Assembly (NCBI GenBank): GCA_035288405.1
Contig: DATEAK010000170.1
Coordinates: 1-6,227, forward strand
Direction: 5' to 3'
DNA length: 6,227 bases
DNA from: JACPSX01 sp035288405 [NCBI: bacterium]
GTDB lineage: Bacteria; JACPSX01
The notes under the pieces were generated by a model. That model made no database searches, was not told where the DNA came from, and was given only the letters and a program-made list of their open reading frames with translations. Shown here piece after piece: positions 2,696 to 6,171 of this stretch. The first letter of the stretch is position 1; each line of letters starts with the position of its first letter. The position numbers were made by a program, and so were the translations under genes.

Positions 2696-2715
2696 GGATC
2701 GGAGTCAGATCATGA
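2677..2715 (+). other. Possible 12-codon upstream reading frame overlapping the ldcA start
   Basis: An ATG at 2677, inside the palindrome, opens a frame encoding MTMVVIRIGVRS. Its TGA (2713-2715) overlaps the ATG of the LD-carboxypeptidase gene as ATGA. Only a weak AGAAG-like sequence precedes it, so translation is uncertain. Confidence 0.15.
2701..2704 (+). promoter_or_regulatory. Ribosome binding site that fixes the ldcA start
   Basis: GGAG stands 7 bases before ATG 2712. The frame is open further upstream to a TTG at 2619, but that codon lacks a site and the extra residues are low in complexity and precede the conserved N-terminus. Confidence 0.6.
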
Positions 2716-3635
2716 GCCTGAAACCCCAGGCCTTGAAGCCGGGTGATATGGTGGGCATCGCAGCTCCGGCCGGCCCTTTCCAACCGAAAGAACTGGAACA
2801 GGGAATCCGCCGTCTGAATTCCCTGGGATTCAAGGTCAGGTTCGACGAGCGTGTCTTCTCCCAACACCGCTACCTGGCCGGGAAGGACCAGGACCGGGCC
2901 CAGGTCATCAACGATTTGTTCGCAGACGATGAAATCCGGGCCATTTTTTGCGCGCGGGGCGGATACGGATCGGTCCGGCTTCTGCCCTATCTCGATCTGG
3001 AGTCGATCCGCAAACATCCCAAGATTTTCATGGGCAGCAGCGACATTACCTCGCTGCTTCTGTACTTTCAGAGCCGCGTCCCCCTTGTGGTTTTCCATGG
3101 ACCCATGGTGGCCCGGGAACAAATCATCCTGATGACCGAACTAACCCGAACCTATCTGTTAAAAACCCTATGCTCCTCCTCTCCCGCGGGAATCTTGCAA
3201 GCGGACGGGATCCGATCCCTCCATCCGGGGAAAGCGGAGGGGATTCTCACAGGCGGCTGCCTATCACTCCTGGTACGGGCTCTGGGCACATCCGAAGACT
3301 TCGATACCCGGGGAAAAATTTTGTTCATTGAAGATGTGGACGAGAAACCCTACCGGATCGATCGCATGCTGACCCAGCTCCGGGAAGCGGGAAAGTTTGA
3401 GCAGGTTCGAGGAATCGTCTTTGGCACTATGGTGAATTGCCAAAGCGATCCCGATGTCGACTACAGCCTGACCGATGTGATCCTGGAGGTGATGGCCGGC
3501 ATCGAGATCCCCATGCTCTATAATTTCCCTTCCGGGCACGGCCTGGAAGCCATCACCCTCCCCTTTGGTATCCGGGCAGCCATCGATGCTGACAATGCCA
3601 GTTTGAGCATTCTCGAAGGAGCCGTAATCGAATGA
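2712..3635 (+). CDS. ldcA: LD-carboxypeptidase (peptidase family S66, LdcA/MccF-like)
   Basis: A 307-residue cytosolic serine peptidase of the usual length for family S66. Family members of the LdcA type remove the terminal D-Ala from L-Ala-D-Glu-mDAP-D-Ala tetrapeptides recovered from the wall. The N-terminus LKPGDMVGIAAPAGP, followed by ARGGYGSVRLLPYLD (81-95), is characteristic. The Ser-Glu-His triad can be placed: the nucleophile Ser110 in FMGSSDIT, Glu207 in LFIEDVDEKPYRIDRML, and His276 in FPSGHG followed by TLPFG. No signal peptide is present, as expected for a cytoplasmic recycling enzyme. An MccF-type microcin-immunity peptidase shares the fold, but the tight linkage to mpl favours LdcA. 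It is the first gene of a three-gene operon and overlaps the next gene by 4 bases. The upstream palindrome at 2672-2695 may control it. Confidence 0.92.
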   Translation: MSLKPQALKPGDMVGIAAPAGPFQPKELEQGIRRLNSLGFKVRFDERVFSQHRYLAGKDQDRAQVINDLFADDEIRAIFCARGGYGSVRLLPYLDLESIRKHPKIFMGSSDITSLLLYFQSRVPLVVFHGPMVAREQIILMTELTRTYLLKTLCSSSPAGILQADGIRSLHPGKAEGILTGGCLSLLVRALGTSEDFDTRGKILFIEDVDEKPYRIDRMLTQLREAGKFEQVRGIVFGTMVNCQSDPDVDYSLTDVILEVMAGIEIPMLYNFPSGHGLEAITLPFGIRAAIDADNASLSILEGAVIE

Positions 3636-4747
3636 ACTTTCGTGCGGTTGACGCGAGAATGGGGGAAGGCGTCAGCGAGGGGGTTTTCCCCGGCGCCGTA
3701 CTCATGCTGGTTGCCCGAGGCACCATTGCTTTTCAGGAAACTTACGGGCAGGCTGCGCTCCTGCCGGCTTCGCGCCCGATGTCCAGAGAAACACTCTTTG
3801 ACCTGTCTTCCCTAACCAAGCCTCTGGCCACCACGGCGGCCACTTTGCTGTTGATTCAGGAGAACCGAGTCTCCCTGGATACCAAGGTTTCCTCGCTCCT
3901 GCCGGCTTTTTCAGGCCGCGAGAAAAATTCGATTTCCTTGCGTCACCTCTTCTGCCACTGCTCCGGGCTTCCGGCTTGGGTCCCCTTTTATGAGCGCGTC
4001 GATTACAAGGAGATCTCCAGTCCGGGACTGCTGGGGACCGATGCCGCCAAAGCCTATGTTTACGAGGAAGCCGCCAAAGAACCTTTAGCGTACGAGGTCG
4101 GAACCGCCACCGCGTACAGCGATCTCGGCTTCATCTTGCTCGGGCAAATTGTCGAAACTCTGAGTGGGGATCCCCTGGACCGATTCTGTCGCTCGCGAAT
4201 CTTCGATCCCCTCGGGCTCCATCATACCTTTTTCATTCCCGTGAATTCTCCGGCTCCCGCCTCCGCCGGTGCGTTTGCCGCCACGGAAGCTTGCCCGTGG
4301 AGGCAGAAGGTCATGTGCGGGCAGGTTCACGACGAAAACGCTTACGCCATAGGAGGGACAGCGGGCCACGCCGGTCTCTTCTCCACAGCCGCGGAGACCC
4401 ACCGCCTGGTCGAGCAGTGGGTAAAAGCATGGCACGGACGGGAGACCCTGTTCCACCCGAAGCTCGTGCGCGAATTTTGCCGTATTCAGGAGATTGTTCC
4501 CGACTCCACCTGGGCTCTGGGCTGGGATACTCCATCGCCCGCAGGTTCTTCATCGGGTCACTATTTCCAGGACCCCTCCATGGGCCATCTGGGGTTTACA
4601 GGAACCTCGATCTGGATCGATCTGGAGAGGCGCAACTGGGTCATCCTGCTGACGAACCGGGTTCACCCGAGCCGCAGCAATGAGAAAATCAGAAAATTTC
4701 GCCCCGAAATTCACAACCTGGCCATGAAAGCATTGGGAGCTGCATGA
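3632..4747 (+). CDS. Cytosolic serine hydrolase, beta-lactamase/PBP-like family (class C, esterase-like)
   Basis: A 371-residue member of the Beta-lactamase (PF00144) superfamily, starting at the ATG that overlaps the preceding stop codon (ATGA), with AAGGAG 10 bases upstream. Three active-site motifs are intact: S60-L-T-K63 (nucleophile and general base), Y162-S-D, and the third strand GHLGFTGTSIWID (318-330), which replaces the KTG of true beta-lactamases with FTG. Other family marks are LFCHCSGLP (106-114) and LLTNRVHP near the end. The GFTGTS form is known in hydrolases linked or fused to peptidoglycan-recycling enzymes such as NagZ-type glucosaminidases. There is no signal peptide or membrane segment (N-terminus MNFRAVDARMGEGVSEG), so it should act in the cytoplasm. 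Its place between ldcA and mpl suggests a muropeptide amide or ester as substrate, but that is inference. Antibiotic resistance is not indicated. Confidence 0.88.
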   Translation: MNFRAVDARMGEGVSEGVFPGAVLMLVARGTIAFQETYGQAALLPASRPMSRETLFDLSSLTKPLATTAATLLLIQENRVSLDTKVSSLLPAFSGREKNSISLRHLFCHCSGLPAWVPFYERVDYKEISSPGLLGTDAAKAYVYEEAAKEPLAYEVGTATAYSDLGFILLGQIVETLSGDPLDRFCRSRIFDPLGLHHTFFIPVNSPAPASAGAFAATEACPWRQKVMCGQVHDENAYAIGGTAGHAGLFSTAAETHRLVEQWVKAWHGRETLFHPKLVREFCRIQEIVPDSTWALGWDTPSPAGSSSGHYFQDPSMGHLGFTGTSIWIDLERRNWVILLTNRVHPSRSNEKIRKFRPEIHNLAMKALGAA

Positions 4748-6171
4748 TGGACCTTCAGGGAATCCGGCGCATTCACTTCATGGGGATATGCGGCACCGGC
4801 ATGGGCGCCATGGCCGGAATGTTCAAGTCTTTGGGGTACGAGGTCACCGGCTCCGATGATCACGTTTACCCCCCCATGAGCACGCAGCTCGAGTCCCTGG
4901 GGATCACACTCATGCAGGGGTACCGGGCTGAAAACCTCGCCAATTCTCCCGACCTCGTGGTGGTTGGAAACGTGATCACCCGCAAGAATCCGGAGGCTCA
5001 GGCTTTGCTCGGCAGCCGGCTTCCCTACCTCTCTTTTCCACAAGCCTTGTCCCAGTTTTTCTTGACGGGGAAGCACTCGGTCGTGGTGGCGGGGACCCAC
5101 GGCAAGACTACGATCTCCTCTCTCATCGCCTGGATCCTGGAACGCGCCGGCTTTCATCCCGGGTTCATGATCGGCGGAATTCCTCTGAACTTCGGTCGCA
5201 ACTATCAGCTCGGCAACGGACCGTTCTTCGTGGTGGAAGGGGACGAGTACGATACGGCGTTTTTTGACAAGGGACCCAAGTTTCTCCATTACCAACCCCG
5301 CACCGCAGTGCTCACAAGCATCGAGTTCGATCACGGCGATATTTACCGGGATCTGGAGCACGTTCGCCAGGCCTTCCGGAAGTTCGTGGAGATCATCCCC
5401 TCCGGGGGAACCCTTCTGGTAGGGGACTGCGTGGAGCGGCTCTCCGAGGCGGTGAATGGATGTCCGGGGCGCTGCGAAACCTACGGCTTCTCGCCCGAGT
5501 CCCACTGGCAATTACGGCGAACGATCTTCCACGACACGGACTGTGAGTTTGAACTTTACGAGCAGGGTATTCCACTGGGATCTTTCCGAACCCCCTTGCT
5601 GGGCCGGCACAATTTACAGAATACGGTGGGTGCTATTGCCGCCGTTCTCCATCTGGGCCTGTCCCTGAGACAGATCCGCCGAGGTCTCGCTTCCTTCCGC
5701 GGGGTGCGGCGCCGCCAGGAGATTCGAGGAATCGTGGACGGCGTCACGGTGATCGATGATTTCGCTCATCATCCGACGGCCGTGCGCGAGACCTTGAGCG
5801 CGATCCGAGAGGCCCATCCGAACCACAGACTGTGGGCCGTTTTCGAGCCGCGCACCGCCACCAGCCGGCGCAACGTGTTTCAGTCCCAGTATGCGGGAGC
5901 TTTCCAGGCGGCCGACGAAACGATCATTGCAGCGACATTTAATCCCGATCCCATCGAACCCGAACAGCGCTTCTCTCCTGAAAAGCTGGTTGAGGACCTC
6001 GTGCGCAAGGGCCAGAAAGCCCGCCACATCCCTGCCGTCGAAGAGATCGTCGCATCCCTGGCAGAGGAAGCCCGCAGAGAGGATCTCGTGGTCATCATGT
6101 CCAATGGCGGGTTCGGGGGAATTCATGACAAGCTCCTGGAAGCACTGCAAAACAAAGTATCCGGAAGATGA
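4744..6171 (+). CDS. mpl: UDP-N-acetylmuramate:L-alanyl-gamma-D-glutamyl-meso-diaminopimelate ligase (Mpl)
   Basis: A 475-residue Mur-ligase family enzyme, close to the E. coli Mpl length. It joins recovered tripeptide L-Ala-D-Glu-mDAP to UDP-MurNAc with ATP, bypassing MurC, MurD and MurE. The N-terminal domain opens with IHFMGICGTGMGAMAGM (10-26) and ends its first fold in VTGSD. The ATP P-loop is GTHGKTT (117-123). The central VEGDEYDTAFFD (164-175), LTSIEFDHGDIY (190-201), DDFAHHPTA (338-346) and C-terminal SNGGFGGIHDKLL distinguish Mpl from MurC, which has EADESD and DDYGHHP-type motifs. The first ATG overlaps the preceding stop codon (ATGA). GGGAG at 4735-4739 lies 4 bases from it and 7 from the second ATG at 4747, so initiation could be at either, a difference of one Met. 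All key motifs are present and the gene looks functional. Confidence 0.95.
   Translation: MMDLQGIRRIHFMGICGTGMGAMAGMFKSLGYEVTGSDDHVYPPMSTQLESLGITLMQGYRAENLANSPDLVVVGNVITRKNPEAQALLGSRLPYLSFPQALSQFFLTGKHSVVVAGTHGKTTISSLIAWILERAGFHPGFMIGGIPLNFGRNYQLGNGPFFVVEGDEYDTAFFDKGPKFLHYQPRTAVLTSIEFDHGDIYRDLEHVRQAFRKFVEIIPSGGTLLVGDCVERLSEAVNGCPGRCETYGFSPESHWQLRRTIFHDTDCEFELYEQGIPLGSFRTPLLGRHNLQNTVGAIAAVLHLGLSLRQIRRGLASFRGVRRRQEIRGIVDGVTVIDDFAHHPTAVRETLSAIREAHPNHRLWAVFEPRTATSRRNVFQSQYAGAFQAADETIIAATFNPDPIEPEQRFSPEKLVEDLVRKGQKARHIPAVEEIVASLAEEARREDLVVIMSNGGFGGIHDKLLEALQNKVSGR

Follow-up and report, generated by a model that had tools for sequence, protein, structure and literature searches.

What is the role of a serine hydrolase whose gene is wedged between two genes of murein recycling? 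The question is raised by a 6,227-nucleotide stretch of contig DATEAK010000170.1 from the bacterium JACPSX01 sp035288405 (below, the window means this whole stretch), in which a serine hydrolase of family PF00144, here named SH, is encoded between ldcA and mpl. Our analysis of this locus and of SH relatives indicates that SH is probably a cytosolic serine amidase that would cut L-alanine from N-acetylmuramic acid (MurNAc) or its anhydro form (anhMurNAc). The operon has the following layout.

2712-3635, + strand: ldcA, LD-carboxypeptidase of peptidase family S66, 307 amino acids (PF02016 and PF17676)
3632-3635, + strand: ATGA overlap of the ldcA stop and the SH start, 4 bp, read from the sequence
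3632-4747, + strand: SH, proposed cytosolic (anhydro)MurNAc-L-alanine amidase, 371 amino acids (PF00144 score, context of relatives, no leader)
4744-4747, + strand: ATGA overlap of the SH stop and the mpl start, 4 bp, read from the sequence
4744-6171, + strand: mpl, UDP-MurNAc:L-Ala-gamma-D-Glu-meso-diaminopimelate ligase, 475 amino acids (TIGR01081)

The three genes, with their coordinates and four-base overlaps, were proposed earlier as a muropeptide-recycling operon (the original prediction), and both the sequence and the family scores bear this arrangement out. A GGAG sequence lies 7 bases upstream of the start of ldcA (2701-2704), 10 bases upstream of SH (3618-3621) and 4 bases upstream of mpl (4736-4739); an in-frame TTG is present upstream of ldcA at 2619, and the GGAG site belongs to the ATG at 2712. 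Gene overlaps by themselves are frequent in operons, and what goes beyond chance here is how well the functions of the neighbours agree, together with the context of SH relatives. LdcA is a clear member of peptidase family S66, with both domains (PF02016, 134.6 bits; PF17676, 122.6 bits) and with S110 (in GSSD), E207 and H276 aligned to their counterparts in P. aeruginosa PA5198 (phmmer alignment to 1zrs); these three residues we take to be the Ser-Glu-His triad. Mpl belongs to the TIGR01081 equivalog (448.2 bits, cut-off 388.7) and stays under the MurC cut-off (322.1 bits against 335.1), its best solved relatives being 3hn7 and 3eag. Thus the label of Mpl stands at the level of the equivalog and that of the LD-carboxypeptidase at the level of the family; assignment to the E. 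coli-type LdcA equivalog (NF008424) was rejected at 149.6 bits against a cut-off of 378.

SH scores 189.1 bits with PF00144, above the gathering score, and carries the SxxK, Y-x-[ND] and [HK]-x-G motifs of the family. Its N-terminus, MNFRAVDARMGEGVSEG..., has no hydrophobic leader as judged by reading the sequence, in agreement with the original prediction of a protein without a signal peptide. The motifs are given below with their conservation in the 52 SH rows of a tree of 74 rows; two second paralogues (L079, L162) were left out of both the tree and the residue counts.

3809-3820, + strand: SxxK motif S60-L-T-K63, with the nucleophile serine and the lysine; both S60 and K63 kept in all 52 SH rows
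4115-4123, + strand: YSD motif Y162-S163-D164; Y in 52 and D in 37 of 52 SH rows
4328-4339, + strand: H233-D234-E235-N236, core of the signature G-x-V-H-D-E-N-A; V in 49, H in 49 and D in 51 of 52 SH rows
4586-4594, + strand: H319-L320-G321, third active-site motif (HTG/KTG position); H and G in 52 of 52 SH rows

SLTK and YSD are therefore intact as predicted, whereas the third motif, previously read as FTG, is H319-L320-G321, and FTG comes after it; the middle residue of this motif is T in 43 SH rows and L in three. The third residue of the YSD position is mostly N in the 22 control rows (17/22), and the V, H and D of the signature are not common residues there. The blocks G230-x-V-H-D, A247-G248 and H319-x-G-F-T-G are kept in most or all SH rows, and are not found as a block in the controls. 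Among curated families the nearest is E. coli PBP4B, but SH is far under its equivalog cut-off (NF002968, 163.4 bits against 385), as it is under that for class C beta-lactamases (NF033085, 50.9 bits against 415); the profile scan of SH contained no match to PF01510, the family of AmpD and other Amidase_2 zinc amidases. An AlphaFold2 model built from three sequences (mean predicted local distance difference test score, pLDDT, 58.4; predicted template modelling score, pTM, 0.66) was too poor for reading the active site.

The tree, made by a quick method and with SH-aLRT (approximate likelihood ratio test) support only, parts the 52 SH rows, window included, from the 22 controls with support 99, a split that is partly by construction, as the SH rows were chosen by their likeness to the window or by context. 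Linkage to muropeptide genes is seen in 24 of these 52 rows. The window protein falls in a group of 11 rows with support 92, which is not starred, and it belongs to no starred subset; the same group holds an AnmK-fused protein (L069), a Bacteroides protein fused to a glycoside hydrolase family 3 (GH3) domain, a murQ-linked Enterococcus protein and E. coli PBP4B.

The two sides of the recycling pathway provide the key to these contexts. Mpl acts on the freed peptide. According to a passage of PMC5061867, an amidase cuts MurNAc from L-alanine, after which the peptide goes to LdcA and the sugar to AnmK and MurQ. The SH family is associated with peptide-branch genes (ldcA, mpl) in the window and with sugar-branch genes (anmK, murQ, including an AnmK fusion) elsewhere, which points to the cut at the branch point, the only known reaction that the two branches share; cleavage of anhMurNAc-L-Ala is proposed because its two products feed LdcA and Mpl on one side and AnmK and MurQ on the other.

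Sugar-branch partners recur in plasmids. A tblastn search of PLSDB with SH gave 235 records, with an identity of about 37% for the best, and AnmK, MurQ or NamZ (queries: T. roseum AnmK, E. coli MurQ and a Paenibacillus NamZ/DUF1343 protein) lay within 10 kb in at least 41 of the top 60 SH records, a lower bound obtained by comparison with the best 60 of 132 AnmK and the best 60 of 121 MurQ records, near copies being included among the 60 SH records. The order is nagA-SH-anmK in Thermomicrobium roseum, with murQ farther along, anmK-SH-nagZ followed by an ATP-binding cassette transporter in Deinococcus sp. KNUC1210, SH-anmK in Allorhizobium and murQ-SH in Enterococcus. SH and NamZ are joined as a single gene in Burkholderia and Cupriavidus, as are GH3 and SH in Bacteroides, where the SH hidden Markov model recognises the beta-lactamase-type domain. 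The T. roseum and Deinococcus KNUC1210 proteins resemble window SH in starting without a leader and in 38% identity, and differ in lying beside anmK, on the sugar side, and not beside ldcA or mpl. A scan of genome contigs with SH yielded no more than two relatives, one each in a metagenome-assembled genome of Verrucomicrobiales and of Chloroflexi, and the Verrucomicrobiales relative (L001) has a leader; scanning of viral contigs found none. In the records examined, SH relatives are mostly annotated generically, for example as 'serine hydrolase domain-containing protein'.

On a plasmid of Halorussus aquaticus (L037, 4630-13195), genes for AnmK, an amidase of the peptidoglycan recognition protein (PGRP) type, SH, NamZ/DUF1343, NagZ and GH18 occur together; by its predicted gene content this is a murein-catabolism cluster in an archaeon. 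To our knowledge, haloarchaea have no murein of their own. Matches to AnmK, SH and NamZ also lie close together on further Halorussus and Haladaptatus plasmids, and a search of open-licence papers for haloarchaea and anhydro-N-acetylmuramic acid kinase found none.

The association was quantified in 201 Chloroflexota genomes searched with window SH, 28 of which have SH at E 1e-35 or better. AnmK, MurQ, NagZ or NamZ lies within about 6 kb at 11 of these 28 loci, compared with none of 20 loci that E. coli AmpH retrieved from these 201 genomes (Fisher p 0.0012; one has NagA only), the 20 being taken from 46 AmpH-query places, one per genome, best first. Since AnmK was scarce in the genomes of this control (3 of 20), a second control was drawn from AnmK-bearing genomes: none of 20 regions surrounding other PF00144 places in 10 such genomes showed the link, against 11 of the 21 SH loci whose genomes carry AnmK (p 0.0002). 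AnmK (PF03702 above cut-off) is present in 31 of the 201 genomes, namely in 21 of the 28 with SH and in 10 of the 173 without it (Fisher 2e-15), and the seven SH genomes that lack AnmK are those with the seven lowest-scoring SH matches. When the 10 AnmK-positive, SH-negative genomes and 10 negatives were searched again with a profile, only one, G002, gained SH, namely L002, which the scan of genome contigs had already found, so the first search can miss members; with this genome moved, the counts become 22 of 29 and 9 of 172. The best Chloroflexota match (G251; L069, 4300-7059) has AnmK and SH in a single stop-free frame of 920 codons in a draft genome, which probably encodes a bifunctional amidase-kinase. 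LdcA had three matches in the 21 genomes where SH and AnmK co-occur, each on a contig other than that of SH. In one Chloroflexota cluster with SH, AnmK and MurQ, a second PF00144 protein (L079, 8362-9792) is directly beside NamZ.

The original guess that SH frees the peptide from anhMurNAc is thus well supported in other lineages by the AnmK, MurQ, NagZ and NamZ neighbours, by the fusions and by co-occurrence with AnmK in Chloroflexota. The accompanying idea of a non-zinc replacement or companion for AmpD has a precedent in AmiE, and fares less well as to replacement: 24 of the 28 Chloroflexota genomes with SH also contain PF01510 zinc amidases (83 of 201 overall), by which the simple picture of SH occurring where PF01510 is missing is ruled out. 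Together with the PGRP-type amidase adjoining SH in Halorussus, this argues that the zinc enzyme was not simply swapped out. Among the 21 genomes with SH and AnmK, four drafts of 1.1 to 3.7 Mb are free of PF01510 (G147, G160, G181, G317), and eight have matches to E. coli AmpD. Nine AmpD-like loci were read, with an evident leader in L163, L166, L167 and L168 and none in L165, L169 and L170; L164 is cut by the contig end, and the frame translated for L171 is not that of the amidase.

The primary description of B. subtilis AmiE (YbbE) is reportedly by Litzinger in 2010. AmiE is listed under PF00144 in Table 1 of PMC10653849, and according to a passage of PMC5061867 it is a MurNAc-L-alanine amidase whose muropeptide substrates are cleaved outside the cell; hence a non-zinc amidase of the beta-lactamase family would not be a new kind of enzyme. 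By this listing and description AmiE resembles SH in its family and in its muropeptide neighbourhood, murQ-murR-murP-amiE-nagZ (PMC5061867, same passage), and differs in being extracellular, whereas SH is leaderless and lies beside ldcA and mpl. The coupling to muropeptide genes that would be expected of an AmiE-type amidase family is observed for SH relatives, and in the window it is provided by ldcA and mpl. A second parallel is RmNag3 of Rhodothermus marinus (passages of PMC6987092), in which, as in the Bacteroides GH3-beta-lactamase fusion, a PF00144-type domain is fused to a NagZ-type glycosidase; unlike SH, the domain is fused, and RmNag3 has a signal peptide. Its authors linked the domain to peptidoglycan turnover via beta-lactamase induction and named AmiE as a parallel, and the label amidase is absent from those passages. 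E. coli PBP4B is similar to SH as its nearest curated family, in the position of its gene after murQ-murP and in its place near SH in the tree, there with weak support; it is dissimilar in its leader-like N-terminus, 30% identity, the unreached cut-off and its annotation as a penicillin-binding protein. AmpD, the zinc anhMurNAc-L-Ala amidase of PF01510, shares with SH the proposed reaction and a place before mpl: on a 40-kb plasmid of Magnetococcus massalia (L187, 3418-5410) ampD is 31 bp upstream of mpl, and so, on the predicted genes, it occupies the slot that SH fills in the window. The two enzymes have an unrelated fold and chemistry. In open-licence literature, covered by titles and the beginnings of abstracts, neither an ldcA-SH-mpl operon nor a serine counterpart of AmpD was named. 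The kind of enzyme is known from AmiE, and its leaderless setting between ldcA and mpl and its fusion with AnmK appear to be undescribed in the literature searched.

Various observations weigh against the amidase assignment. No link to AnmK, MurQ or NamZ is seen among the matches listed for 19 of the 60 PLSDB records, one of which is a Bacteroides GH3 fusion, and none to these or to NagZ at 17 of the 28 Chloroflexota loci; several contigs are short. Haladaptatus pallidirubidus and Deinococcus deserti provide examples of records that lack such a link. The genomes compared are related and not independent samples, and the p values given above overstate their independence. The retained PF01510 enzymes and the Halorussus PGRP-type neighbour count on the same side, as does E. 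coli, where PBP4B, described as a DD-carboxypeptidase in a title cited in PMC5061867, shares the cell with AmpD. Of 145 Verrucomicrobiota genomes, eight had SH, four AnmK and one both, so that SH does not track AnmK there (1 of 8 SH genomes, 3 of 137 others), with SH fused to NamZ at three of the eight loci. Finally, none of 40 Verrucomicrobiota mpl loci, three of which ended at contig edges, had LdcA, SH or AmpD within about 5 kb; they were taken from 45 genomes with Mpl at E < 1e-80, leaving out G035, G065, G113, G026 and G044. This survey, confined to Verrucomicrobiota mpl loci, bears on whether the order is restricted to one genome, which according to the original prediction would count against it: the window is the sole place where ldcA-SH-mpl has been seen so far.

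These observations leave room for three other explanations. SH could act in the cytosol as a DD-carboxypeptidase or endopeptidase and prepare imported pentapeptides or cross-linked dimers for LdcA and Mpl by trimming them, while AmpD elsewhere cuts sugar from peptide; such an enzyme also fits between the two, its nearest named family is PBP4B with the title just mentioned, and AmpH, a DD-peptidase, is of the same superfamily. However, the distance of SH from the PBP4B cut-off and the lack of muropeptide context at the AmpH-found loci speak against a DD-peptidase, and fusion or adjacency to the sugar enzymes AnmK, MurQ, NagZ and NamZ would be left unexplained, so that we regard it as unlikely. 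The class C fold houses many esterases, and the best solved relatives of SH by profile are carboxylesterases (4ivi, 3e-41; 1ci8, 3e-38), as would suit an esterase of unrelated or wall-related substrates, such as an O-acetyl or lactone esterase, merely sharing the operon; yet 4ivi has SEMFDPRV and GGQG in place of the GQVHDENA and GHAG of SH, and the coupling to muropeptide enzymes recurs in several phyla, which makes this quite improbable.

The remaining alternative agrees on the bond and differs in the substrate, which would be MurNAc-peptide scavenged from other bacteria and not self-recycled anhMurNAc-peptide. The NamZ and NagZ partners of many relatives and the cluster in a murein-less haloarchaeon are in line with scavenging, but AnmK partners imply an anhydro sugar, and Mpl in the window implies re-use in the cell's own wall; we give it a very slim chance. 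Cleavage of (anhydro)MurNAc from L-alanine thus remains our preferred assignment for SH. A broader proposal, that a family of serine amidases lacking a leader and marked by the signature G-x-V-H-D-E-N-A...GHAG...H-T-G-F-T-G-T took the cytosolic branch-point step in several lineages, replacing AmpD, is more tentative, and we would put it at somewhat less than an even chance.

If SH is such an amidase, then ldcA, SH and mpl would form a translationally coupled unit for salvage of murein stem peptides in the cytosol. S60, in the penicillin-binding/beta-lactamase fold, would attack the carbonyl of the lactyl amide joining L-alanine to (anhydro)MurNAc; a muramoyl-enzyme ester would form, the peptide would leave, and water would then free the sugar acid. 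LdcA would convert tetrapeptide to tripeptide either before or after the SH cut, and Mpl would join the peptide to UDP-MurNAc. We infer the acyl-enzyme route only from the fold and motifs; the bond cut, the order of steps and the standing in of SH for AmpD are our inferences too.

Three other genes were noted in the window. An O-methyltransferase of the PF00891 type (3-737, + strand) has a frame that stays open at the edge of the window. The - strand, opposite to that of the operon, encodes at 783-1571 an exported-looking protein of the PF13483 metallo-beta-lactamase fold (107.9 bits) and at 1625-2464 a lipoprotein-like protein of 279 amino acids, with LNGC near its N-terminus, that matched nothing in Pfam or NCBIfam at E 0.001.

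Reconstructions of murein recycling seek ampD and score a gap if it is absent; should the assignment of SH be true, Chloroflexota, Deinococcus and other groups could lose this gap, and there would be a testable function for a large, so far unassigned branch of the beta-lactamase superfamily. The activity of AmpD governs the muropeptide signals that induce beta-lactamase, and a serine counterpart, if real, would therefore matter for the setting of such signals in bacteria without AmpD. In addition, the penicillin-binding fold might make the SH step itself sensitive to beta-lactams that reach the cytosol.

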